Shown: piece after piece, positions 8,023 through 44,906 of the stretch
Layout: every line of letters starts with the position of its first letter
Position numbering within the stretch: the stretch's first letter is position 1
From: Candidatus Gastranaerophilales bacterium
Lineage (GTDB): Bacteria; Cyanobacteriota; Vampirovibrionia; Gastranaerophilales; Gastranaerophilaceae
Assembly: GCA_944324405.1 (NCBI GenBank)
Contig: CALUWF010000011.1
Location: forward strand, 1-44,906
Length of the DNA: 44,906 nucleotides
Direction: 5' to 3'
The notes under the pieces: generated by a model
What the model saw: the letters and a program-made list of their open reading frames with translations, nothing else
Told to the model about the DNA's origin: nothing
Databases searched by the model: none
Translations under genes and position numbers: made by a program

Positions 8023-9252
8023 TTAACTGTCTGCTTTTTTAAAAATCAAAGAGGTGTTAATTCCGCCGAAGGCAAAATTATTTGACATTATAATGTTTGT
8101 ATCAATATTTCGGCCCTTGCCTGTTATATAATCAAGCGGGGCACAGTTTTCATCGACATTGTTTAAATTAATGGTAGGGGCATACCAACCTTCATTGAGC
8201 ATTTTTAAAGAAAGTATTGCCTCAATTGCGCCACATGCGCCAAGGGTGTGTCCTGTGTAGCTTTTAAGTGAGCTTACGGGTACTTTTCTTTTAAAAACAT
8301 CATAAGTTGCGCGGCTTTCGGCTATATCGCCCTGTATTGTAGCGGTGCCGTGTGCATTGATGTAACCTATCTCATCAGGAGATATGCCCGCATCTTTTAT
8401 TGCAAGTTCAAGGGCCATACCCATTGTCTCATGGGTCGGGTTTGTTATGTGAGCGCCGTCGGTTGATGTACCAAAGCCTATGATTTCGCCGTATATTTTG
8501 GCACCTCTGTTTTTAGCATGTTCATATTCTTCTAAAATGAGCGTTCCCGCTCCTTCGCCAAGGACGAGTCCGTCTCTGTCTTTATCAAAAGGGGACGGAG
8601 ATAATTCGGGAGTGTTATTTTTAAGGCTTGTAGCATATAATGTATCAAAAATTGCAATGTGGGAAGGGTGCAGCTCTTCGGCACCTCCTGCTATCATAAT
8701 CGTTTCATAGCCGTTTTTTATTGCTTCATAGCCGTAACCTATGCCCATCGAGCCTGAAGTACAGGCGGTTGAGCTGGGAACAAGTCTTCCTTTTGTTTTA
8801 AAATAAAGAGATATGTTGACCGTTGTTGTCTGCGGCATCATTTTGACGTACGAACCGGAATTTACACAGCGAACCTTCTTTTCTACCTGCATAGTATAAA
8901 AATCGATGATTGATTCTAATGAGCCTGAAGAAGAACCGTAGCTGACGCCTGTTTGCCCGTTAGAAATTATTTCATCGCCCAGAAGGCCTGCATCTTTAAG
9001 GGCAATCTCAGATGTCGCCGTGCTCATAATTGCAACGCGCCCCATTGTTCTTAAAACTTTGCGGTTATAGTGTTCGGGTATAACGAAATCTTTAACGGGA
9101 GCTGCAAGGCGAGTGTTGAGGTTTTGAAACTCGTCAAGAATTTTATAATATTCAACACAGTTTTTGTATTTTTTAAGTTTGTTATATGCTAAATCAACAT
9201 CGCACCCGAGAGGGCTTGCAATTCCCATGCCTGTAACAACAACTCTTTTCAT
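8023..9252 (-). CDS. apeO: Aryl polyene beta-ketoacyl-ACP synthase (ApeO-type)
   Basis: This FabF-like ketosynthase would perform decarboxylative condensation with malonyl-ACP in polyene chain extension. The 409-aa protein has the intact Cys-His-His triad: C164 in STACTSGS, H301 in INAHGTAT and H335 in SYTGHTLGA. The C-terminal NNFAFGGINTSL is standard. It is last in the minus-strand operon apeR-P-Q-O and overlaps the upstream ketoreductase gene as ATGA (9249-9252). In described APE systems ApeO pairs with the chain-length factor ApeC, which here begins the divergent operon. Assignment as O rather than R rests on order and length. Confidence 0.85.
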   Translation of the reverse strand: MKRVVVTGMGIASPLGCDVDLAYNKLKKYKNCVEYYKILDEFQNLNTRLAAPVKDFVIPEHYNRKVLRTMGRVAIMSTATSEIALKDAGLLGDEIISNGQTGVSYGSSSGSLESIIDFYTMQVEKKVRCVNSGSYVKMMPQTTTVNISLYFKTKGRLVPSSTACTSGSMGIGYGYEAIKNGYETIMIAGGAEELHPSHIAIFDTLYATSLKNNTPELSPSPFDKDRDGLVLGEGAGTLILEEYEHAKNRGAKIYGEIIGFGTSTDGAHITNPTHETMGMALELAIKDAGISPDEIGYINAHGTATIQGDIAESRATYDVFKRKVPVSSLKSYTGHTLGACGAIEAILSLKMLNEGWYAPTINLNNVDENCAPLDYITGKGRNIDTNIIMSNNFAFGGINTSLIFKKADS

Positions 9253-9989
9253 CTGTACATGCCTCCGTTTACGCTTATTGTTTGACCTGTAATATACGAG
9301 GCGTCCGGGCTTATAAGATAATTTACAAGGCTCGCAACCTCATCAGCCCTGCCTGCGCGCCTCATCGGAATTAGTTTTTTAATTTCATCAAGAGGAATTT
9401 CGCTAATCATATCAGTGTCAATGACCCCGGGGGCAACGCAATTCACCGTTATGCCTCTTTTTGCAAGCTCAAGCGACAGTGCTTTTGTGGCGCCTGCTAT
9501 GCCGGCTTTTGAGGCGCTATAGTTAACCTGTCCGCGGTTGCCGGCAAGACCCGAGATTGAGGACATTGTAATTATTCTGCCTTTAATTTTATTTTCTATC
9601 ATGGCTTTAACTGCGGGCTTTAAAACATTGTAAAAGCTGCCCAAATTTGTATTTATAACATCGTCCCACTCGTTTTCTTCCATTATAAAAAACACATTAT
9701 CGCGCGCAATTCCGGCATTTAGTATAACCGCATAATATGCGCCGTTGTTTTTAATATCATATTCAAGGATTTCAAACGCGGATTTTCTGTCGCTTACATC
9801 AAATTGTAAAATATTTGCCTTTGTGCCCAACTGTTCAAGAGCAGCTTTTATATCTTGCGCCTTTTCTTTATTTTTGTTGCAATGCAGAATAATTTCCGCA
9901 TCTTTGTTGTTTTTTGCAATATAAAGAGCGCAATGTGCGCCAATGCCCCTGCTTGAACCCGTAATTAAAATCCTTTTATTGCTGCTCAC
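9249..9989 (-). CDS. apeQ: 3-oxoacyl-ACP reductase (ApeQ, FabG-like)
   Basis: This is an NADPH-dependent short-chain dehydrogenase reducing the beta-keto group after each condensation. The 246-aa protein shows the cofactor motif TGSSRGIG (residues 10-17), NAGIARDN, and the active-site set N115, S144, Y157 and K161 (YSASK). The ending TGQTISVNGGMYR matches FabG. It sits between the dehydratase and ketosynthase genes with minimal spacing, so its substrate is almost certainly polyene-ACP rather than housekeeping fatty acids. Confidence 0.88.
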   Translation of the reverse strand: MSSNKRILITGSSRGIGAHCALYIAKNNKDAEIILHCNKNKEKAQDIKAALEQLGTKANILQFDVSDRKSAFEILEYDIKNNGAYYAVILNAGIARDNVFFIMEENEWDDVINTNLGSFYNVLKPAVKAMIENKIKGRIITMSSISGLAGNRGQVNYSASKAGIAGATKALSLELAKRGITVNCVAPGVIDTDMISEIPLDEIKKLIPMRRAGRADEVASLVNYLISPDASYITGQTISVNGGMYR

Positions 9990-9998
9990 CGATAAACC

Positions 9999-10439
9999 TC
10001 ATGCCTGTGCGCTTTTTGGCTGATAAACATTTATTGTTGCCCTTGCGCATTCCTCATTGCCATTATAGATAAAACAGTCGAACGAAACAAGTTCGTTGTC
10101 GTTGAATACTTGCTGTGCGGTTATTATATATGTTTTGCCGAGTTCAAATTTTTCAAGATTACATCTGTATGCTCTGCTGCCAAGCAGATATCCGATTTTA
10201 GGCTTTTGCATATTGTTTTTAAACCACATATAACACCCTGCGCTTTGAGCCATAAATTCAATCCCGGCAAGAGCGCAAATACCTTCAATATTTTTATCGT
10301 ATAAAATTTTGTCTTCACTTACGGTAACAGAACATTTTACCAGATTATTTTGCGCGTCCGCTTCAATAAGCTTATCTATTAATATCATAGGGTGGCTGTG
10401 CGGCAGAATATCTTCAAGGTTCTTTACCAAATTATTCAT
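9999..10439 (-). CDS. apeP: 3-hydroxyacyl-ACP dehydratase (ApeP, hotdog fold)
   Basis: This small FabA/FabZ-like dehydratase (146 aa from the chosen start) would introduce the trans double bonds of the polyene. Key elements are LPHSHPMILID with the catalytic His at residue 14 or 16, and GIEFMAQSAGCY with the acidic residue E61. The start chosen is ATG 10439: it overlaps the apeR stop as TAATG and has a strong GGGAGG Shine-Dalgarno about 7 bases upstream. A longer frame to 10457 (adding MPGGRI) would begin inside that Shine-Dalgarno region and is less likely. Confidence 0.85.
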   Translation of the reverse strand: MNNLVKNLEDILPHSHPMILIDKLIEADAQNNLVKCSVTVSEDKILYDKNIEGICALAGIEFMAQSAGCYMWFKNNMQKPKIGYLLGSRAYRCNLEKFELGKTYIITAQQVFNDNELVSFDCFIYNGNEECARATINVYQPKSAQA

Positions 10440-11593
10440 TATTCTTCCTCCCGGCATATTATCATTGATGTATTTGAACCGCCAAAACCGAACGAGTTAT
10501 TCATTATATATTTAATATTTTGTGCTTTTTGTCCGTATTTTACAAGATTTAAACGCGGCAGTGTATCATCATATGCACCGTCAAATTTGTGCGGCAGAAG
10601 AAAACCTTCTTTATTTATATTTTTATTAATTATACCGAGGCAAAGTGCCGTTTCGACAGCCGCACAAGCGCCAAGGCAATGTCCGGTCAGGGATTTGGTG
10701 GAACTTACCGCCACATTATTTTTAAAGATTTTATATACGGCGTTTGCTTCCATTAAATCATTTGTCAGAGTCGCCGTGCCATGAAGGTTTATATAATCAA
10801 TATCACTATACTTAAGGCCGGCTTCATCAAGTGCCGTTTGCATTGCTGCGGCAGCCTCAACACCCTCGGGGTCAGGAGTTGCACAATGGTATGCGTCCGA
10901 TGTTTCTCCGATCGATACTATACTTGCAAGGCAGGAGGAGCTTTTTTCTTTTTCAAGCAGAAAAATTGCCGCTCCTTCACCAATGTTTATGCCTTTCCTG
11001 TTTTTTGAAAAAGGATTGCAAGGCTCATTTGAGAGCACTTCAAGGGAGTGAAAGCCGTAGGATGGCAATTTGCAAAGCGCGTCGGTTGCGCCCGTAATGA
11101 CGGCATCACAAATATCGTTTTCAAGAAGTTTTTTTGCGCTTGAAAAAGCTTTTGTACCGGAGGTGCATGCGCAGGAAACGCCGCTATAGTAGCCTTTTAA
11201 ATCGAGATAATTATGCAAAAAGCCTGCCGGGTTGCCAATTTGCGAGTAGTCAATATTTCCGGTGAGCGCATATTCATCTACTCCGGAATTTGTTGTTCCG
11301 ATAACCACCCCTACTCTTTTTTGTCCGTATTTTTTTATTGCATTGTCAATTTCACTTTTTATTTGAGAAACACAATTGAGCAAAAGTCTGTTTGCGCGAA
11401 TATTGTATTTTGTATTTTTAATTTGTTCAAGCGCGGTTTTGACTTTTGCAAAATAAAATTTTTTACCCTTTATTATGGTATCATCGGGAGTCAGAAAATT
11501 GTTTTCGGGGTTTAGCGCATTTTTATACATGCTTAAGATATCGTTCCCGATGCTTGAAATTGTGCCGCAGGCATTTATGTATATTTTTTTCAT
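10439..11593 (-). CDS. apeR: Aryl polyene beta-ketoacyl-ACP synthase (ApeR-type)
   Basis: This is a second FabF-like condensing enzyme of 384 aa with an intact triad: C143 in SCACTSGT, H271 in NLHGTATL and H305 in SLTGHCLGA. It is more divergent than the ApeO homologue and slightly shorter. In published APE systems a second ketosynthase (ApeR) contributes to an early or alternative elongation step. It is first in the minus-strand operon, so its promoter must lie in the 78-base gap to apeC. The stop overlaps the start of apeP. Confidence 0.85.
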   Translation of the reverse strand: MKKIYINACGTISSIGNDILSMYKNALNPENNFLTPDDTIIKGKKFYFAKVKTALEQIKNTKYNIRANRLLLNCVSQIKSEIDNAIKKYGQKRVGVVIGTTNSGVDEYALTGNIDYSQIGNPAGFLHNYLDLKGYYSGVSCACTSGTKAFSSAKKLLENDICDAVITGATDALCKLPSYGFHSLEVLSNEPCNPFSKNRKGINIGEGAAIFLLEKEKSSSCLASIVSIGETSDAYHCATPDPEGVEAAAAMQTALDEAGLKYSDIDYINLHGTATLTNDLMEANAVYKIFKNNVAVSSTKSLTGHCLGACAAVETALCLGIINKNINKEGFLLPHKFDGAYDDTLPRLNLVKYGQKAQNIKYIMNNSFGFGGSNTSMIICREEE

Positions 11594-11631
11594 AATTCAG
11601 CCTTATTTTTGATAAAAAGAATGTTTTGTAA

Positions 11632-11650
11632 TATGATAAATATTATCATA
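11632..11650. promoter_or_regulatory. Inverted repeat in the divergent apeR/apeC control region
   Basis: Perfect 7-bp arms TATGATA (11632-11638) and TATCATA (11644-11650) flank a 5-nt centre, in the middle of the 78-base spacer between the two ape operons. The position suits an operator controlling both directions. TATTAT at 11641-11646 is a weak plus-strand -10 candidate inside it. The DNA is AT-rich, so chance cannot be excluded, and no regulator gene is inside the cluster. Confidence 0.45.
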
Positions 11651-11671
11651 AACCGTCTTGGGATATAAGAG

Positions 11672-12211
11672 TTGGAATTTTGCATAAAAAAATACTGTAT
11701 CAAAAGTTTATCTGATGTCGATTTGTCTTTTCTTGCACCTATGGCGAGAAGAAAATTAAGCGAGCTTGATAAAACCGCGCTTTGCATAATGAATGAGTGC
11801 TTATCCTGTGCTGAAGATAAAAATATTAAAATTGTGTTTGCGTCACAGTATGGTGAAGTAGGGCGTTTGAAAAAGCTTGTAGGCCAATACAGTGAAGAAA
11901 ACGAAGTATCACCGGCAACTTTTAGTGCTTCGGTGCACAATAGTGTAGTCGGGCAATTTTCACTGATTAATAAAATTACAAAAAGCTATAATTCAATTTC
12001 AGCGCAGGAGTATACTTTTGAAGCGGGACTCATTGAGGCAATTACAAGTGCAAGAGATGAAGAAGTTCTTTTTTGCTTCTGTGACGGCGTTTTGACTGAA
12101 AATGCCTGCGGATTTGGCTGTATAATATCTCCAGATGGACAGAAAAATGCCTTTTTAAAAGAAGGCAGACTTTATTATATGACCGGTGGTGTTGCAAAAT
12201 GCATTTTTTAA
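11672..12211 (+). CDS. apeC: Beta-ketoacyl synthase chain-length factor (ApeC)
   Basis: The 179-aa protein matches the short ketosynthase-like family that acts as partner of the APE ketosynthase. It has LAPMARRKLSELDKTAL near the N-terminus, VFASQYGEVGRLKKLV, and SPATFSASVHNSVVGQFSLI, where a condensing enzyme would carry its active-site region but without a catalytic Cys. It starts with TTG at 11672, preceded by GGGA about 8 bases upstream; the first in-frame ATG (11741) would remove conserved residues before MARRKLS. Its end overlaps apeD by 13 bases. Confidence 0.82.
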   Translation: MEFCIKKYCIKSLSDVDLSFLAPMARRKLSELDKTALCIMNECLSCAEDKNIKIVFASQYGEVGRLKKLVGQYSEENEVSPATFSASVHNSVVGQFSLINKITKSYNSISAQEYTFEAGLIEAITSARDEEVLFCFCDGVLTENACGFGCIISPDGQKNAFLKEGRLYYMTGGVAKCIF

Positions 12212-12969
12212 GGTATTTTAGGGGCTTAGTTGTAGTTTTATCTTTTGTATTTTTCGGTGCAGGTGCGCTTGTAATAAACTATTTTATATTTCCGGCGATA
12301 AATCTGTTTGCAAAAAAAGAGCAAGCAAGGCGCTATTGCTGTAATGTAATTCATAAAACCTGGAAGTTTTTCTGTATTTTAATAGAAAAAACGGGCTCGG
12401 TGAGAATTGTCGTTTCAAACCCTGAGAAACTAAAAAATATAAGAGGTAAAATCATTACGGCAAATCATCCGAGTTTTATTGATATTGTTATACTCATAGG
12501 ACTTTTGCCCAATACTCTTTGCATGGCAAAAAAAGAAATTAAGAAAAATATTTTTATGGGAAATATCGTAAAATCTCTTTATCTTATTAACGATGAGGAT
12601 AACGAGCGCCTTTTAAGAGAGTCTTCACAAATTCTGTGCGCCGGATACAATATTGTAATTTTTCCGACAGGCACAAGAACGGAAGAGGGAGAGCCGTTAA
12701 AGCTGCATAAAGGTGCAGCACTTATGGCACTTCACAATCATGCGGATATTATTCCAATTCATATAGATTGTGATTATAAATTTCTTGCTAAAAATCATAA
12801 AATCTATGATGCCGGCGAAAGAGTTGTTACTTATACCCTAACGGTCAACGATGAAATAAAGATAGAAAATTTTACAAAACAGGATTTGAGCAAAATTCGG
12901 CTTAGAAACAGAATTAACGGTGAAATTAAGGAAAAAATTCAAAAACAGCCGCAAATTGACTTTATTTAA
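12199..12969 (+). CDS. apeD: PlsC-like acyltransferase (ApeD)
   Basis: This 256-aa 1-acylglycerol-3-phosphate acyltransferase-type enzyme is anchored by an N-terminal membrane segment (about residues 8-33). It has the catalytic HX4D motif as NHPSFID and the substrate motif FPTGTRTEEGEPLKLHKGAA. In APE clusters this enzyme is thought to help attach the polyene, or a fatty acyl chain, to the lipid anchor. It overlaps apeC by 13 bases, lacks an evident Shine-Dalgarno of its own, and is likely translationally coupled. Confidence 0.85.
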   Translation: MHFLRYFRGLVVVLSFVFFGAGALVINYFIFPAINLFAKKEQARRYCCNVIHKTWKFFCILIEKTGSVRIVVSNPEKLKNIRGKIITANHPSFIDIVILIGLLPNTLCMAKKEIKKNIFMGNIVKSLYLINDEDNERLLRESSQILCAGYNIVIFPTGTRTEEGEPLKLHKGAALMALHNHADIIPIHIDCDYKFLAKNHKIYDAGERVVTYTLTVNDEIKIENFTKQDLSKIRLRNRINGEIKEKIQKQPQIDFI

Positions 12970-13003
12970 TACTTAGGCTATAAAATATATAAAGGGGTAG
13001 CTA

Positions 13004-13264
13004 ATGACACTTGAAGAAGAATTAAAAAGTTTTATAATAGAAACGCTTGAACTGGAGGATATTACTCCGGATGACATTAATACCGATGAACCGCTTTTTA
13101 GCGAAGGACTCGGACTGGATTCAATTGATGCGCTTGAGCTCGGTATGGCCTTAAAGAAGAAATATAACCTTAAGATGAACGAGGATAAAGACGAGAACAA
13201 AAAGTATTTTTATTCGGTAAAAACCCTTGCCGATTTTATAAGAAGCACACAAAACAACGATTAG
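13004..13264 (+). CDS. apeE: Acyl carrier protein (ApeE)
   Basis: This 86-aa ACP has the phosphopantetheine attachment Ser40 in GLDSIDALELGMAL and an acidic helical composition. A good GGGG-type Shine-Dalgarno precedes ATG 13004. It is the first of two consecutive ACP genes, the arrangement known from APE clusters, in which the two carriers appear to serve different stages. Confidence 0.9.
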   Translation: MTLEEELKSFIIETLELEDITPDDINTDEPLFSEGLGLDSIDALELGMALKKKYNLKMNEDKDENKKYFYSVKTLADFIRSTQNND

Positions 13265-13273
13265 GGGAGCAAG

Positions 13274-13528
13274 ATGAGTTCTAAATTCACAAGAGAAGAA
13301 ATAGAAAAAGAACTTAAGGACATTTTGGTGAATGATTTTGAAATTGATGAAGCCAAAATCACTCCCGATGCAAATCTTTTTGAAGATTTGGAGTTTGACA
13401 GCATAGACGCTGTCGACCTTGCTGTTCGTCTGCAAGACTATACCCAAAAAAAGATTTCTCCGAATAATTTTAAACAAATAAAAACAATAAATGACGTAAT
13501 ATGCGCTATTGAAGAAATTGTAAAATAA
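13274..13528 (+). CDS. apeF: Acyl carrier protein (ApeF)
   Basis: This second ACP of 84 aa has Ser43 in EFDSIDAVDLAVRLQ. It starts 9 bases after apeE. It differs clearly from ApeE in sequence, so it is not a recent duplicate. Together they would hold the starter and the growing polyene for the ketosynthase, reductase and dehydratase enzymes encoded on either side of the divergent promoter. Confidence 0.9.
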   Translation: MSSKFTREEIEKELKDILVNDFEIDEAKITPDANLFEDLEFDSIDAVDLAVRLQDYTQKKISPNNFKQIKTINDVICAIEEIVK

Positions 13529-13532
13529 ATTT

Positions 13533-13970
13533 ATGAAGCGCATAAAAGAAGGTTTAAAAAAGTTGTTTAAAAGGTTTGGCTTTATTTTTTCAACCCTTTT
13601 TACAATTGCAATCATACTTATTTTTCATTTTACCCGCTTAAATGCGCTTAAAATCTATCCGGTTGCGGTTAATTTTTGCTTTTTTCTGACTTTTTTTTCT
13701 TCAATTTTTCAAGAGGAAACAATTATTCAAAAATTTGCAAAAATGAGTGACGGAGTGTTAAGCGAACCGGTTAAAATTTACACAAGAAAGCTTACATATA
13801 TTTGGTGCATTTTTCTTTTTATTCAGCTTTTACTTTCAATTATTACTTGTTTTATGGCAGATAAAATATGGATGTTGTATAACGGATTTTTGTCTTATTT
13901 GTTTTTGGGATGTTTTTTTGCGATAGAATATACAATTAGAGTGACTTTGAGATTGAAAAATAAATTATAG
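13533..13970 (+). CDS. apeG: Four-helix membrane protein of the APE cluster (ApeG-type)
   Basis: The 145-aa protein has hydrophobic segments at about residues 17-34, 43-58, 87-108 and 115-135. It has a conserved pattern YTRKLTYIWCIFLFI...NGFLSYLFLGCFFAIEYTIR that I recognise from the small COG4648-type membrane protein found in APE clusters. Its function is not established; a role in placing the pathway at the inner membrane or in lipid transfer is plausible. It is tightly packed between apeF (4-base gap) and the apeH/I fusion. Confidence 0.75.
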   Translation: MKRIKEGLKKLFKRFGFIFSTLFTIAIILIFHFTRLNALKIYPVAVNFCFFLTFFSSIFQEETIIQKFAKMSDGVLSEPVKIYTRKLTYIWCIFLFIQLLLSIITCFMADKIWMLYNGFLSYLFLGCFFAIEYTIRVTLRLKNKL

Positions 13971-13972
13971 AA

Positions 13973-15601
13973 ATGAACATATTTGAAATTATAAACAACT
14001 CTAAATACGCTGATATCCCTTTTGTGCTTTACAAAGGGCGCAGTTATGCAATTTCTGACATAAGAAAGATGGTTTTAGGGGCGAGTGCAAAATTAAAAGA
14101 GGACAAAAGGCAAAAAGTCCTTTTGGTATCCGAGAATAATTTTGATTTTATAATTGGTTTTCTTGGCTGTGTATTTGCGCAAAAAGAAATTTTTCTCCCT
14201 TCGGATATAAAAAAAGCGCAAAATTTGGGAGAGGATTTTATACTTTTAGATAAAATTGAAGAAACGGTATTTGATGAATTATGTGATTTGACCGCTTCTG
14301 ATTTTAATAATACTTATATTACATTTTGCACCTCCGGTTCTTCGGGCAAAGTAAAGACTTTAAGGAAAAATCTTGCTTGCTTGATGGATGAGGCTAAAGA
14401 CATTGAAGAGTGTTTTGGGGTTTTTATGCCGAGCAAAAATGTCAAAATTTGCGCTTCAACAAGCCCAAGGCATATGTTTGGCTTTGCATTTCAATTTTTT
14501 ATTGCGCTTTGTAATTGTTCAAGGTTTATATTAAGTGCGGACGAAGTTGTATATCCGGATAAAGCTGATATTGTAGACTGCATATTTATTTCAACCCCTT
14601 CGTTTTTAGATGAGTTTTTAAAGTATAATGTTGATTTAAAATGCGCTCCAAAGCTTATTTTTAGTGCAGGCGACAAGCTTTGTGACAAAACTCTTCAATA
14701 TTTTAAAAGTTTTGGTGTAAAAATCATTGAAATATATGGAAGCACCGAAACGGGTACTATTGCTTATAAAGCAGAGGACGGTTATTTTCACTGTTTAAAA
14801 AATGTTGAAATAAGCAAAGATGAACAGTCGCAAATTATAATTAAATCCCCCTATTTTTTACAAGATGAAGTAAAATTGGGTGATTGTATTAAAAGTTCCG
14901 ACAATAAGACTTTTATGCTCGGACAAAGAACAGACAGGATTTTAAAGATACAGGAAAAAAGAATAAACGCAATTGAAATTGAGGAAATATTAAACAATAG
15001 CGTTTTTGTAGATGAGTCATACTGTTTTAAGTATGAAAACAAACTGGCATGTGCGGCGGTGTTAAGTGAGCAGGGAAAAGCTGCTTATATTGATACGGAT
15101 AATTTTGACAGAACTGCCCTTGTAAAGCTTTTAAAGGCGGATGTTGCCCAAAAATCACAAATAGTGCCACAAAGATGGAAATTTTTATACGAAATTCCAA
15201 AAACTCAAAGAGGAAAGATTGACAGAGGAAAAATAGAAGAATTTTTTAATTTAAATATTTCTCTTCCTCTTGTTTTAAAATACAAAAAAGATAATGACAG
15301 TGCATGCTTTAAACTTTTCTTTTCAAAAAACTGTAATTTTTTTGCAGGACATTTTGATGGTTTTCCCGTTGTTCCGGGCGTAATTCAGCTTTACTTCGCA
15401 AATAAATTTGCAAAAGAAGCTTTTAAATGCGAGGTTTTGGAAAGTCCCGTTAAGAAAATTAAATTTTCGCATATTATAAAGCCGGATGAAGAGATTGACC
15501 TTAAACTAAGTCTTGAAGGCAAAAATATCAGTTATAATTATTGCAGGGATGATATAATATATTCCTGCGGTGTTATGGAGATAAAACAACAGGGGGAATA
15601 A
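13973..15601 (+). CDS. apeH/apeI: Fused acyl-AMP ligase (ApeH) and hotdog dehydratase (ApeI)
   Basis: The 542-aa protein joins two activities. Residues about 1-430 form an ANL-superfamily adenylating enzyme with the ATP loop TFCTSGSSGKVKT, the IEIYGSTETG motif, hinge region GQRTDRILKIQEKRI and a C-terminal lysine motif PKTQRGKIDR. It would activate the aryl starter acid and load it on an ACP. Residues about 445-540 form a hotdog dehydratase with the FabZ-like core FFAGHFDGFPVVPGVIQLYFA containing the catalytic His. In the APE clusters I recall these are separate genes in the same order (H then I), so this is a natural fusion of neighbours. There is no stop or frameshift between the domains. 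Confidence 0.85.
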   Translation: MNIFEIINNSKYADIPFVLYKGRSYAISDIRKMVLGASAKLKEDKRQKVLLVSENNFDFIIGFLGCVFAQKEIFLPSDIKKAQNLGEDFILLDKIEETVFDELCDLTASDFNNTYITFCTSGSSGKVKTLRKNLACLMDEAKDIEECFGVFMPSKNVKICASTSPRHMFGFAFQFFIALCNCSRFILSADEVVYPDKADIVDCIFISTPSFLDEFLKYNVDLKCAPKLIFSAGDKLCDKTLQYFKSFGVKIIEIYGSTETGTIAYKAEDGYFHCLKNVEISKDEQSQIIIKSPYFLQDEVKLGDCIKSSDNKTFMLGQRTDRILKIQEKRINAIEIEEILNNSVFVDESYCFKYENKLACAAVLSEQGKAAYIDTDNFDRTALVKLLKADVAQKSQIVPQRWKFLYEIPKTQRGKIDRGKIEEFFNLNISLPLVLKYKKDNDSACFKLFFSKNCNFFAGHFDGFPVVPGVIQLYFANKFAKEAFKCEVLESPVKKIKFSHIIKPDEEIDLKLSLEGKNISYNYCRDDIIYSCGVMEIKQQGE

Positions 15602-15619
15602 AGGCTGAGGGCTGAGAAG

Positions 15620-16036
15620 ATGAAAAGTATAAAAACAAGCTGCACAATAAAGGTGGAATTTTATAATCTTGACCCGATGAATGTTGTCTGGCATGGTAAT
15701 TACATAAAATTTCTTGAAGAAGCAAGATGTGATATGCTTGAAAAAATCGGCTACACTTACGACAATATGCGAGAGGACGGCTCGGTTTATCCTGTTGCGA
15801 AAATGGATTTAAAATATATTAAACCTGCAACATTCAGACAAATACTCCTTGTTGAAACAACCTTGCTTGAACTTGAACCTGCCATGATTATCTCATATAT
15901 TATCAAAGACCAAAAAACCAAAGAGAAGCTTTTTAAGGCAAAAAGCATGCAAATAAGAGTTGATGTAAAAACAAGAGAAACTCTTTATACTGCGCATAAA
16001 AATTTTCTTCAAAAGATTAAGGAATATAATAAATGA
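15620..16036 (+). CDS. apeK: 4HBT-type thioesterase (ApeK)
   Basis: This 138-aa hotdog thioesterase has the 4-hydroxybenzoyl-CoA thioesterase signature NLDPMNVVWHGNYIKFLEEAR, with the catalytic Asp at about residue 19. It could release the polyene, or proofread mis-loaded acyl-ACP. A GAGAAG Shine-Dalgarno precedes the ATG. Its stop overlaps the start of apeL as ATGA. Confidence 0.85.
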   Translation: MKSIKTSCTIKVEFYNLDPMNVVWHGNYIKFLEEARCDMLEKIGYTYDNMREDGSVYPVAKMDLKYIKPATFRQILLVETTLLELEPAMIISYIIKDQKTKEKLFKAKSMQIRVDVKTRETLYTAHKNFLQKIKEYNK

Positions 16037-16578
16037 AAAAAGTCGTGTTTTTATTTTTATTCTTTTTTGCGTTTTGCACTTTAGATGTTTGCGCTTCGGA
16101 TATTTTTTCTTGCAGGGCGGATATAAATAAGCTCGGCGCGCAAATGCCGCAATTTGAAAATACGGTCTGCAAGTTTGAACAAAATAAATACATAAGCCAA
16201 ACGGGTGTAAATTTAAAATCCGGCGGTAATTTCGAATTTATAAAAAATAAAGGCATAACCTTTGAAACTCTTTACCCGATACATTCGCAAGTTTCATATA
16301 ATGCATCTGACAATAAAAATATAAATGCTGTTGTAAAATCGGTTATTAATAAGGATTTTTCACGACTTGAGAAGAATTTTGATTTTTTTATGAAAAAAAA
16401 TAATCAGACAGACTGGCAGCTTGCACTCAAGCCAAAAGCCGGTTTTGCGCTTGAGGGGGATATGGATTACCTTTTAATAGAAGGCAAGACGGTAAATTTA
16501 AAAGGGGTAATCACAAAAATTACAATAGCGCTCAAAAGTACGGTAACAACAATTAATTTTAGCCAATGCAGGTATTAA
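16033..16578 (+). CDS. apeL: LolA-like periplasmic carrier (ApeL)
   Basis: The 181-aa protein has a cleavable signal peptide (hydrophobic core about residues 4-15, cleavage near CASD) and a LolA/LolB-like mature part: FENTVCKFEQNKYISQTG, then GGNFEFIKNKGITFETLYPI, then DWQLALKPK. LolA-type proteins carry lipids or lipoproteins across the periplasm; in APE clusters this homologue is presumed to ferry the polyene lipid. It overlaps apeK by four bases and is followed after one base by the MMPL exporter gene. Confidence 0.82.
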   Translation: MKKVVFLFLFFFAFCTLDVCASDIFSCRADINKLGAQMPQFENTVCKFEQNKYISQTGVNLKSGGNFEFIKNKGITFETLYPIHSQVSYNASDNKNINAVVKSVINKDFSRLEKNFDFFMKKNNQTDWQLALKPKAGFALEGDMDYLLIEGKTVNLKGVITKITIALKSTVTTINFSQCRY

Positions 16579-16579
16579 A

Positions 16580-18796
16580 ATGAAAAAAAATATTTTTTTA
16601 AATGTTTTAAGAATTTTGCTGTGTCTGCTTTTTGTGTCGCTTGCCGTTTTTGTATTTTTTCATCCGAAAAAAACTCAAACAAATATTTTGAGTGCAATTC
16701 TTTCAAGCAGCAGCGAAGATGGAACGCTTTTAAACTTAAGCCTAAAACATTCCGGCCGCTTTAGGGTTATTTTTAAATCAGATAATCAATTAAGCTCTGA
16801 TGAAGCGCGTGATGAATTTATGAACGGTGTCGATAAAAGTGCGCTAAGGGATGATTTTGCTTTAAATAAAAATATTTCAAGTCTTCTTGATGAATATAAG
16901 ATACACCACAGCGCTCTGTTGTCATACAATACAAAAGATGAACTTAAGCTGCAAAGATATAAAATTATTAAAGAGCAAAGCCTTGAAAGACTCTACAGTC
17001 CGTTTGCATTTAACCTTTTGCCGCTTGAAGAAGATCCCTTTTTGCTCTTTAGTGATTTTTTAAATATGATATCAAATAGCAGTACAGGATACAAAAACGA
17101 ACTTGACGGGTCGTATTACAGTGTTTTGGAGCTTAATTTAAAAGACAGCATTGCGCTTTCGCCCAATCTTTTACAAAGCGAAATGCCTAAGTTCATTGAC
17201 TTAAAAAATAAAATTGAAGATAAATATGAAAACGTACAAATCTATCTTTCGGGCACTCCGGTGCATACTTATTATGCAAGTTCTAAATCAATGAAAGAAA
17301 TTAATTTTATTTGTATTTTTTCTTCACTTTTTATAATCTTAATCTGCAAATTTTATTTTCGCTCTTACCGCCTGCTTTTTCCAATAGCGCTAAGCCTTAC
17401 CTTGGGGATGACTTTTGGCTATCTGCTTACTTGTGTATTTTTTAAATCAATTCATATTTTAACCTTTGTGTTTTCTTCAACTCTCATAGGCATCTGTGTT
17501 GATTATTCGCTTCATTATTTTGCTTCCCAAAACAATATAAAGATTATATTTAAAAGCCTTAGTATGAGTATGTTCACAACGGTCTGCGCTTTTTTGTCAC
17601 TTTTATTTTCAAATATTACACTTTTGGGGCAAATAGCAGTCTTTACTTCGGGCGGATTGATTTTTGTGTATTTGTTTGTGGTGCTTTTTTACCCTCTTAT
17701 CTGCAATAATTTGAAGCTAAATCAAATAGATTTTGACCCTTTTTCTTATTTAAAAAGAATTCCAAAAAATATAATTGCTGCAGTTTTTGCAATGCTTTTA
17801 TTACTTTCTTTTGCGGGGTATTTCAGGTTAAATTTTGATAATGAAATTACAAATATGTACAAGCCTCCGAAATTTCTGCAAAATAGCGAAAAAATAGCGG
17901 TAAGTCTTCAAAATACATCTGCCTCTTCTGTTTTTATACTCGTGGAAGGGAAAAATATTCAGGAAATTTTAGAAAACGAAGAAGATATAACGCAAAATTT
18001 GAAGCAGGATGATTTTATTGCGCTGAGCAAATTTATTCCCTCAATTAAAGCTCAAAAAAATAACAGAGAGCTGATTTATGCACTCTATAAAAACGAACTT
18101 TTTAATTATGCTTCATTTCTGACGCAAAATGTAAGAGAAAATATTTTAAAACAAATTTCGGACGAGATAAAAAAAAGCGATTATTTAAAGCTTGAAAATT
18201 TACCCGCACAACAGTTTAAAGACTTTTTCGCCAATGAAAATACCTCAGTTATCTTACTTAAGGGCCCCGTCAATTTTGACATTGCAAAAAAATATCCTAA
18301 TGCCAAAATGGTGGATTTAAAAAACGACATATCAAAAAAAGTTGAAAGATGTTCAACAAGCTGCGCGAAGCTTATTTTGCCCGCAATTTTGCTGCTATTT
18401 ACCGTAATGTCATTGATTTATACACCAAAAAATGCGCTTAAAATAATCTCACCTTCTATTCTTGCCGGATTTTTCGTAATCGGAATTTTGAGTTTATTCG
18501 GGCATGGTATAAATTTATTTGATATACTCGCACTCTTTTTAATTGTCGGTTTCAGCCTTGATTATTCGATTTTCAGATTTAATTCAATCCAAGACCCTGC
18601 GGTTTCTGATTTAAGGGCGAATTGGGCGGTTTTGATTTCATGTGCAACAAGTGTATTTTCTTTCTTTTTGCTTGCAATGACAAGCTTTAAGCTGATAAGT
18701 TCGCTTGGGCTTATTTTGTCACTCGGGCTTTTAAGTTCGTACATTTTCAGCTTTATTTTAATATCGGAACCTCGGAATTTCCCCCAAAAAAGCTAA
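16580..18796 (+). CDS. apeM: MMPL/RND-family lipid exporter (ApeM)
   Basis: This 738-aa inner-membrane transporter has the MMPL two-repeat layout: one TM at about 8-27, a periplasmic domain to about 240, a TM bundle at about 245-415, a second periplasmic domain to about 600, and a final TM bundle to 735. Each bundle carries the Asp-Tyr proton-relay motif, GICVDYSLHYFAS and VGFSLDYSIFRFN. It would extract the aryl polyene lipid from the inner membrane and pass it to the LolA-like carrier. Confidence 0.87.
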   Translation: MKKNIFLNVLRILLCLLFVSLAVFVFFHPKKTQTNILSAILSSSSEDGTLLNLSLKHSGRFRVIFKSDNQLSSDEARDEFMNGVDKSALRDDFALNKNISSLLDEYKIHHSALLSYNTKDELKLQRYKIIKEQSLERLYSPFAFNLLPLEEDPFLLFSDFLNMISNSSTGYKNELDGSYYSVLELNLKDSIALSPNLLQSEMPKFIDLKNKIEDKYENVQIYLSGTPVHTYYASSKSMKEINFICIFSSLFIILICKFYFRSYRLLFPIALSLTLGMTFGYLLTCVFFKSIHILTFVFSSTLIGICVDYSLHYFASQNNIKIIFKSLSMSMFTTVCAFLSLLFSNITLLGQIAVFTSGGLIFVYLFVVLFYPLICNNLKLNQIDFDPFSYLKRIPKNIIAAVFAMLLLLSFAGYFRLNFDNEITNMYKPPKFLQNSEKIAVSLQNTSASSVFILVEGKNIQEILENEEDITQNLKQDDFIALSKFIPSIKAQKNNRELIYALYKNELFNYASFLTQNVRENILKQISDEIKKSDYLKLENLPAQQFKDFFANENTSVILLKGPVNFDIAKKYPNAKMVDLKNDISKKVERCSTSCAKLILPAILLLFTVMSLIYTPKNALKIISPSILAGFFVIGILSLFGHGINLFDILALFLIVGFSLDYSIFRFNSIQDPAVSDLRANWAVLISCATSVFSFFLLAMTSFKLISSLGLILSLGLLSSYIFSFILISEPRNFPQKS

Positions 18797-43128: not shown

Positions 43129-43155
43129 TTTATCAAAATTAACCTGGAGTATAAA

Positions 43156-44906
43156 ATGAAAAAAAGATACGAAACAGCGCTCTTTGGCGCTTTATTGAGG
43201 CATGCTTTTGCCTTTTGCACTTCTGCTGCGCATAAACCCGCTTTTACCATTTCGAATGAAAACAATTTAGTGTGCAGCTGTCACCCTGAACTGGTTTCAG
43301 GGTCTTATAAACAATCAAAGAATGCTCATAATTTGCAGCATAAAAAACCTACATTCACTCTCGCACCTAAAGACCGCCCAACGCGCAACTGTCACCCTGA
43401 ACTGGCTAGAAAATCCGCTTTTATTTTCTCAAACGACAACCGCCCAACGCTCAGCTGTCACCCTGAACTCGTTTCAGGGTCTTATAAGCGTGCACGGAAA
43501 GATAATAATAGGCAAATTAAAAAACCTGTTTTTACTCTTGCAAATAACAACAATTTAACGCCCAGCTGTCACCCTGAACTGGTTTCAGGGTCTTATAAGT
43601 GCACACTGAAAAACAATAATAGGCAACTTAAAAAACCCGCCTTTACCCTCGCGGAATTATTAACGGCAATATTAATAATCTCAGTAATCATGGTAGCCTT
43701 AGCGCCCGTTATTACAAAAAGAATGAAAGATACAGTATCAGTAACTACTGATAACAAAAAAGGTTTAGAAATCTTTACAAACCCCGGTACTTATACTTTT
43801 GATGTCCCAATCGGTATTAATACTCTCTTCCTTCAAGGCTCAGGAGGCGGAGGAGGAGGTGCCGGAGCTAATGAAAGTATATCAAAATCCGTAAGTTATA
43901 CTTCCAATTCGACCTGGACTGTTCCAAACGGGGTAAATAAAATTACGATTGTAATTACTGGTGCTGGCGGCGGGGGAGGAGGTGCAAATGGCGTATTAAA
44001 TCCAAGTGCATATGAGGCGCAGCCGAAATTATCAAATCATAGTTGTCAATCAGGCGAATTACTTGTAGTGCGAGGGGCTGGCACAAATGAAGATTTATGT
44101 TGGACAAAGGATCACCTAGATTGGAATTCTATTAAAAATACATCAGGTTACGGCTCTTGGGGGCCAAATTTAACACTTAACACACGATGTGATATTTCGG
44201 ACTGTTGCTGGAATATTACAGGTTCGAGCTACAGTAATAATCCTTTATATGTATCATCAAACGGTGTCGACACAAGATACAGAAGTTATTGCACAAGAGC
44301 AGCCGCAGAAAAAATATGTCGATTTATATATTCGCAAAGTGATCCAAAATCGGGATATTACAGATTAGCCACTAATGATGAAGGAAAACATATCGTTAAA
44401 TATCAAGAAGAATTAGTAAAGGCGGCAGGTAAAAACGGTATGCAGCTCAGCTGTTATTATTACGACGAGCCTGCTGAAACTGCCGATAGAAGACTACCTT
44501 TAACCGACTGGATATTTGGCGTAACAATAACTGGTACAAATGGTATAGGAGGCGGCTCAGAAGTATTTCTTAACCCGGGGGCATTAAAATGTGCAAATAC
44601 AAAAGACGGAATATATTCAACACTTGGGGATGCAAGTAACACTCTTAGCGTTGCCGGTGTACGCTGCGTCAGAACACTGGAAAGATTTAAAAACCGCTAC
44701 TCCGCCTCAGGAGGTGCATCAGGAGCAATCATGGAAAAAGAGATTAATGTACTACCTAATGATAAGTTAGAAATAACAATAGGTAGTGGTGGTGATGGAG
44801 GAAAGTATGGAACAAATGCAAGTAACGGAATATCTTCTCGAAGCGGGAACGGAAAACAGGGAGGACAAACTAAGGTAGTTCATAAAAGGGGAAGTACAAC
44901 TCTTGG
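43156..44906 (+). CDS. Giant prepilin-like, glycine-rich protein with repeat-expanded leader (3' end outside window)
   Basis: The frame is open from ATG 43156 to the window edge (583 full codons), with a good promoter and Shine-Dalgarno. A type IV prepilin-type cleavage/methylation site KKPA|FTLAELLTAILII is at residues 159-172: predicted cleavage between A162 and F163, Glu at +5, then a hydrophobic helix and APVITKRM. The leader is thus 162 residues, against the usual 5-30, and residues 26-158 are a tandem array (separate entry). After the helix come a short strand region, Gly-rich blocks (GGGGGGAGA, GAGGGGGGAN, later GSGGDGG), and between them a Cys/Trp-rich stretch (about 295-510) ending AGVRCVR, reminiscent of FGE/C-type-lectin-like modules. 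Likely a surface pseudopilin or adhesin; the role is inferred. Confidence 0.8.
   Translation, partial: MKKRYETALFGALLRHAFAFCTSAAHKPAFTISNENNLVCSCHPELVSGSYKQSKNAHNLQHKKPTFTLAPKDRPTRNCHPELARKSAFIFSNDNRPTLSCHPELVSGSYKRARKDNNRQIKKPVFTLANNNNLTPSCHPELVSGSYKCTLKNNNRQLKKPAFTLAELLTAILIISVIMVALAPVITKRMKDTVSVTTDNKKGLEIFTNPGTYTFDVPIGINTLFLQGSGGGGGGAGANESISKSVSYTSNSTWTVPNGVNKITIVITGAGGGGGGANGVLNPSAYEAQPKLSNHSCQSGELLVVRGAGTNEDLCWTKDHLDWNSIKNTSGYGSWGPNLTLNTRCDISDCCWNITGSSYSNNPLYVSSNGVDTRYRSYCTRAAAEKICRFIYSQSDPKSGYYRLATNDEGKHIVKYQEELVKAAGKNGMQLSCYYYDEPAETADRRLPLTDWIFGVTITGTNGIGGGSEVFLNPGALKCANTKDGIYSTLGDASNTLSVAGVRCVRTLERFKNRYSASGGASGAIMEKEINVLPNDKLEITIGSGGDGGKYGTNASNGISSRSGNGKQGGQTKVVHKRGSTTL
43231..43629 (+). 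repeat. In-frame tandem array of 111/66/111/111-bp units in the prepilin leader
   Basis: There are four units: 43231-43341 (37 codons), 43342-43407 (22 codons), 43408-43518 (37) and 43519-43629 (37), followed at 43630 by the true prepilin site. Each unit begins with a prepilin-like motif (KPAFTIS, KKPTFTLAP, RKSAFIFS, KKPVFTLAN) and continues through an Asn-rich stretch into CHPELVSGSYK and a basic Lys/Asn/Gln stretch (NNRQIKK). All spacings are multiples of three. The 22-codon unit looks like a full unit with an internal 45-base loss. Confidence 0.88.
43283..43591 (+). repeat. Palindromic HPELVSGS-type elements within the leader array
   Basis: Three copies have perfect 8-bp arms ACCCTGAA/TTCAGGGT and a 5-nt loop at 43283-43303, 43460-43480 and 43571-43591; a fourth, at about 43394-43414, keeps only the left arm. 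They are GC-rich against an AT-rich background, and each is followed by CTTATAA in the intact copies. All are read in the same frame as CHPELVSGSYK. Similar palindromes inserted in genes are known, from memory, in several unrelated bacterial groups. Confidence 0.85.

Follow-up and report, generated by a model that had tools for sequence, protein, structure and literature searches.

A palindromic coding repeat array in the leaders of type IV prepilins from an uncultured gut bacterium of the Gastranaerophilales

In type IV pilins the leader is cytoplasmic, the helix inserts into the membrane and cleavage by a peptidase takes place at the membrane face (PMC10191384; PMC4471445), and the leaders that have been described are 6-26 residues long (PMC4471445). 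Several described repeats resemble those reported here. The palindromic elements of Rickettsia, which are likewise dispersed palindromes lying in frame within protein genes, are about 150 bp long, enter unrelated genes and stay in the product (PMC10969869); they were compared by description. REP elements are alike in being short, dispersed, clustered and mostly intergenic palindromes (PMC3733652). PARCELs, which share with the present repeats a tandem arrangement in protein, dyad symmetry in the DNA and shuffling within genomes, are 25-residue amphipathic domains that are kept in the protein (PMC2996958).

We analyzed a window of 44,906 nucleotides, which is contig C11 of the 1.80-Mb, 99.6% complete genome (G000) of an uncultured gut bacterium, Candidatus Gastranaerophilales. 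The genome is assembled in fragments, and the contig end cuts the gene under study, a prepilin gene on the forward strand (43156-44906), after 583 codons. Elsewhere in the window, positions 8023-18796 encode beta-ketoacyl synthases, a ketoreductase, a dehydratase, an acyltransferase, an AMP-ligase, a thioesterase and an MMPL-type exporter, a set that, judged by eye, presumably resembles an aryl-polyene-type lipid cluster.

The window gene and its leader

The open reading frame of the window gene begins with an ATG (M1) that follows a GGAG ribosome binding site (43146-43149, forward strand) after six bases, and this start region aligns with that of a short-leader ortholog. M1 is the sole in-frame ATG ahead of the cleavage site. 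No in-frame ATG, GTG or TTG occurs past codon 60 of the gene, which rules out an internal start codon and excludes, for the usual start codons, the translation start near codon 150 that an earlier, sequence-only reading had named as grounds for regarding the leader as an artefact.

The real cleavage motif, ..KKPA^FTLAELL, together with the membrane helix at which the mature pilin starts, occupies 43642-43704 of the forward strand. It has Ala at -1 (A162), Phe at +1 (F163, followed by T, L and A) and Glu at +5 (E167), and agrees with the pattern of a small residue (Gly/Ala) at -1, Phe or another hydrophobic residue at +1 and Glu at +5. The Kyte-Doolittle maximum over 19 residues is 2.87, at residue 168, and that of the leader is 1.2. 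The TIGR02532 model matched at 43642-43701 with 17.1 bits (cut-off 16.3), and Pfam N_methyl scored 18.4, below its cut-off of 21.2. One prepilin peptidase was found in the genome (PF01478, G000:C1:182339-182668, 53.9 bits). The residues at -1, +1 and +5, the helix, the TIGR02532 score above cut-off and the presence of a peptidase are all features of type IV prepilins with a class III signal. The leader itself, at 162 residues, departs from the short-leader habit of prepilins (6-26 residues), which is not a strict rule.

These 162 codons (43156-43641, forward strand) encode a hydrophilic and basic segment (pI 10.0, GRAVY -0.79). Copies of the cleavage motif begin at F30, F67, F89, F126 and F163, with spacings of 37, 22, 37 and 37 residues, exactly as the sequence-only reading had it, and they delimit four units, all on the forward strand: unit 1 of 37 codons from F30 (43243-43353), unit 2 of 22 codons from F67 (43354-43419), a truncated module reading CHPELARKSA, unit 3 of 37 codons from F89 (43420-43530) and unit 4 of 37 codons from F126 (43531-43641). 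A palindrome is found on the same strand at 43284-43302 (CCCTGAACTGGTTTCAGGG), at 43461-43479 (CCCTGAACTCGTTTCAGGG) and at 43572-43590 (CCCTGAACTGGTTTCAGGG again). The array is real at the DNA level: TRF reported a period of 111 with 86% matches and a score of 318, and a repeat search found three 77-nt copies (77-84% identity), a 131-nt family and a 37-nt family. The unit contains the palindrome, a dispersed repeat that the sequence-only reading had not named, and it also duplicates the KKPAFTLA codons of the prepilin itself, so that every unit end coincides with the beginning of a new cleavage motif and the frame is preserved.

Glu at +5 and a membrane helix follow only the last motif copy of the window gene, and the earlier statement that this copy alone is a complete class III signal holds. 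That statement had been coupled with the idea that the upstream copies are decaying decoys, which found no support: the helix was never part of the unit, and for that reason the upstream copies may never have been working sites at all.

Eleven array-bearing prepilins and their relatives

G000 has about 26 prepilins, with 26 N-termini scoring above the TIGR02532 cut-off, and the modular array is not confined to the window gene but is present in the leaders of 11 of its prepilins (52, 64, 86, 91, 95, 113, 115, 116, 143, 162 and 204 residues). The units are mostly 37 codons long, the short ones 22 and the long ones 55. Over the 11 leaders there is no stop in 1,241 codons, a count that results partly from picking open frames, whereas the other two forward frames have 40 and 156; the starts were therefore also checked against relatives. 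The repeated duplication of a leader segment and the open frame that had been proposed for the window gene are supported. In the 55-codon units (L015, L034), 18 extra codons, AEKSVEAKPKRDFTPLLG, stand in the middle of the palindrome, and a similar stretch is intergenic in L202; a second dispersed repeat seems to be nested in the first.

The core of the repeat, TGTCACCCTGAACTNGTTTCAGGGTCTTA, is palindromic. The pattern CCTGAANNNNTTTCAGG gave 27 copies in G000, 16 in prepilin leaders and 11 intergenic, and the reversed pattern, used as a control, gave no match there; such counts for the whole genome were obtained by searching a fragmented assembly with patterns and proteins, and the copy numbers may be imprecise. 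All 16 leader copies share one frame, which translates as CHPE..SGS, and coding palindromes are confined to prepilin leaders in G000. Two further genomes of the genus, G003 and G007, hold 47 and 44 copies, often clustered and intergenic where read. The near relatives G002, G008 and G011 have none. As a possible mover of the palindrome, a Y1/RAYT transposase finds little support: PF01797 (Y1) has one match in G000 and none in G003 or G007, the genomes richest in palindrome copies, and showed no correlation with the repeat. No mover was identified.

The upstream DNA of all 11 loci aligns with prepilin upstream DNA in other species of the genus, and the alignments mostly reach the start codon or its vicinity. 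Counted from the likely start, the orthologs that three close relatives have at these loci carry leaders of only about 5-23 residues. The ortholog of the window gene, L142, at the same place as L116 in G008, reads MNRDTNFARKCHVFAA^FTLAELL, with a leader of 16 residues. Because orthologs at the same loci are short-leadered, the leader expansion must have arisen on the branch leading to G000, at many loci. A frame disrupted in relatives had been named beforehand as a mark of a pseudogene, and here the 11 paralogs of G000 keep the frame. The ten loci besides the window gene, their short-leader orthologs and the recurrence in other genera go beyond the sequence-only reading, which was made without tools.

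Some contigs stop close to these genes: those of G000 tend to end within array prepilin genes, and many of G008 end about 1 kb past a prepilin N-terminus (for example L129, L148, L149, L151, L152, L155 and L158). These contig ends point to long, near-identical downstream stretches that are common to the paralogs.

Leader insertions in other genera of the family

A pattern of a palindrome end, 20-80 nt and FTLAE occurred in 11 of 383 family genomes, from 8 of 41 genera, and its reversed control in none of the 383. CHPELVSGS, or other frames of the repeat, are read in open leaders of these other genera. The ATG nearest to the cleavage site at L245, L250 and L254 (G255) and at L241 (G281) comes from a palindromic repeat immediately ahead of that site, as in MTPNGA^FTLAE and MLKQVQHDKAA^FTLAE. 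The repeat may thus create a new prepilin start codon, and some of the upstream repeats (L241, L245) may be untranslated. At L243 (genus g8) the prepilin has its own duplicated motif, MNLIKSNRGKCNSLPCGRGEKKAAFTLAEGPRRTGYCSFCHPELVSGSKKQ...STA^FTLAETLIT.

Two FTLA motifs 20-80 nt apart were found in 50 of 288 genomes (11 of 41 genera). All 30 such loci that were read are in frame, mostly with the motifs 20 codons apart (for example L289, MKKFGFTLAEGATHVAGQNKHSRAG^FTLAEVLVTLG), and a few of the matches listed are out of frame (G180:C30, G193:C1:512758, G034:C81). In these genera the upstream copy retains Gly/Ala at -1, Phe at +1 and Glu at +5, yet lacks the helix. In a search across the phylum, tandem motifs turned up in 41 of the 170 genomes from the family and in not one of the 216 others, an absence that is weak evidence because the pattern is tuned to FTLAE.

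The inserts are of different types: GATHV with a hairpin GCTACGCACGTAGC, and others with GCAGGCTAGCCTGC, GTGGTCGAAGACCAC, GTGGCTGAGCCAC or GTGCCTGAGGCAC, as well as inserts without a clear hairpin. Six of 30 inserts from other genera beat their shuffles at p<=0.05, and a hairpin is recognizable in about half. Leader inserts therefore do not universally include a palindrome, since about half of those in other genera have no clear one. All 5 copies of the sequence GCTACGCACGTAG in G145 lie in leaders, as does every copy read in G083, G250 and G255. G193 has 73 copies of it, mostly outside prepilin leaders, and several are about 230 bp apart (e.g. L317). At L301 and L318 (G250) the leaders are open for more than 170 codons upstream and contain ATHVVHFDDIRRDAFNLVKDN twice or more; this is another large array, with a different unit.

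The leader as a place for repeats, and comparison with known systems

What best explains these observations, and what we consider probable from the sequence comparisons, is that a coding repeat array has settled in a part of type IV prepilins that is disposable, the leader, where repetitive DNA is tolerated. Among the three meanings first proposed for the long leader, tolerated repeat growth fits best, and a delay of membrane insertion or a separate function of the leader is less well supported. A short leader would have taken up the palindrome on one or a few occasions, the captured unit would then have been amplified by tandem duplication and unequal recombination, and the array would have passed between paralogs by gene conversion at their near-identical 5' ends. 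The leader would remain cytoplasmic and the peptidase would cut only at the last copy, the one adjoining the helix; the upstream copies, which lack a helix, would presumably not come within reach of the enzyme. What the insert encodes would be removed and the mature pilin left unchanged, and selection would maintain the last site, an open frame and a hydrophilic character while constraining the precise leader sequence only a little. Repeats that leave no trace in the mature pilin can be expected to collect in the leader, to vary in length over a fourfold range among paralogs and to be missing from near relatives.

It looks unlikely, by comparison, that the long leader itself serves some purpose before it is cut off, such as slowing membrane insertion, holding the prepilin for a chaperone or being released as a basic peptide. 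Pooled Nei-Gojobori estimates of dN/dS, which are rough owing to recombination, were 0.44 for the unit, 0.13 for the palindrome and 0.05 for the mature segment. The unit value is below 1, so part of the leader sequence may matter, and together with the persistently basic, hydrophilic character of the leaders and their spread to eleven loci it speaks for a function. However, the orthologs in near relatives and the other prepilins of G000 manage without the array, leader length ranges from 52 to 204 aa, the heads and tails of units are interchangeable, and any prepilin leader must be basic and hydrophilic. The leader frame has a GRAVY of -0.86, and the other frames have values of +0.22 and -0.41. 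Selection seems to ask for an open, hydrophilic and basic leader and little more.

We also think it improbable that the repeats serve as recombination handles, which would promote the exchange of pilin genes, or of their variable parts, between loci and so vary the cell surface. Over their first 150 bp, mature parts group with others from their own genome and not with those from their locus: distances are 0.22-0.37 to syntenic orthologs and 0.00-0.15 to the closest paralog within the genome. On these distances the mature N-termini are evolving in concert within each genome. In 37-codon units (n=15), the part that precedes the palindrome shows no correlation with the part that follows it (Mantel r=-0.11, p=0.90), as is expected under recombination shuffling at a conserved palindrome, and the palindrome is the best-conserved part of the unit. 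Handles would be compatible with this concerted 5' segment, with the reassorted unit halves and with the conservation of the palindrome, but array-free relatives are equally or more homogenized (mean distance 0.031 in G008), which rules out the array as the cause of concerted evolution and argues that it is not needed, and each locus has kept its own 5' end. The independent assortment of heads and tails and the concerted mature N-termini indicate that the array probably spread by duplication and gene conversion.

That the array is untranslated, or the gene broken or misassembled, is very improbable: the palindrome does provide a nearby ATG at some loci of other genera (L241, L245), but the window gene has no such downstream start, all 11 paralogs are open from their start codon, each locus has a unique upstream flank syntenic with relatives, and the mature part has an open frame under strong constraint.

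If repeats are indeed tolerated in the removed leader, then a discarded protein segment may collect repetitive DNA at little cost, and there would be a place in proteins, always cut off, where repeats grow within genes with little penalty. The 11 paralogs and their short-leader orthologs form a natural set for measuring that penalty. The arrays also raise the question of how the peptidase chooses one true site among several motif copies and handles a leader of 50-200 residues, and they carry a warning for annotation, as gene callers may trim or split such leaders. We would suggest, more tentatively, that repetitive DNA in this family may find a general safe harbour in prepilin leaders. Modules with a copy of the cleavage-site codons would insert at those codons without shifting the frame, and the module end would form the site anew. 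Removal of the module's product by the peptidase would be a protein-level counterpart of splicing, and coding repeats could spread at little cost within a gene family.

No description of HPELVSGS, FTLAEGATH or repeat-built prepilin leaders was found in the open-licence literature, in line with the earlier remark that no described prepilin has such a leader. In-frame palindromes are already known from Rickettsia (PMC10969869); the amplification of a palindrome with copies of the cleavage motif, across a prepilin family and in a leader predicted to be removed, was likewise not found described. The repeats of G000 differ from REP elements in that most copies are coding and there is no consistent link to Y1/RAYT. 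In contrast to the amphipathic PARCELs, the units here are hydrophilic and belong to a leader that is predicted to be removed. Compared with the Rickettsia elements, the palindrome core is only about 19-30 bp, and its coding copies form tandem units with a motif of their host, are found in prepilin leaders only and are predicted to be removed from the product. The leaders that result, at 52-204 residues, exceed those of described type IV prepilins and differ from them in having internal motif copies and a palindromic repeat.
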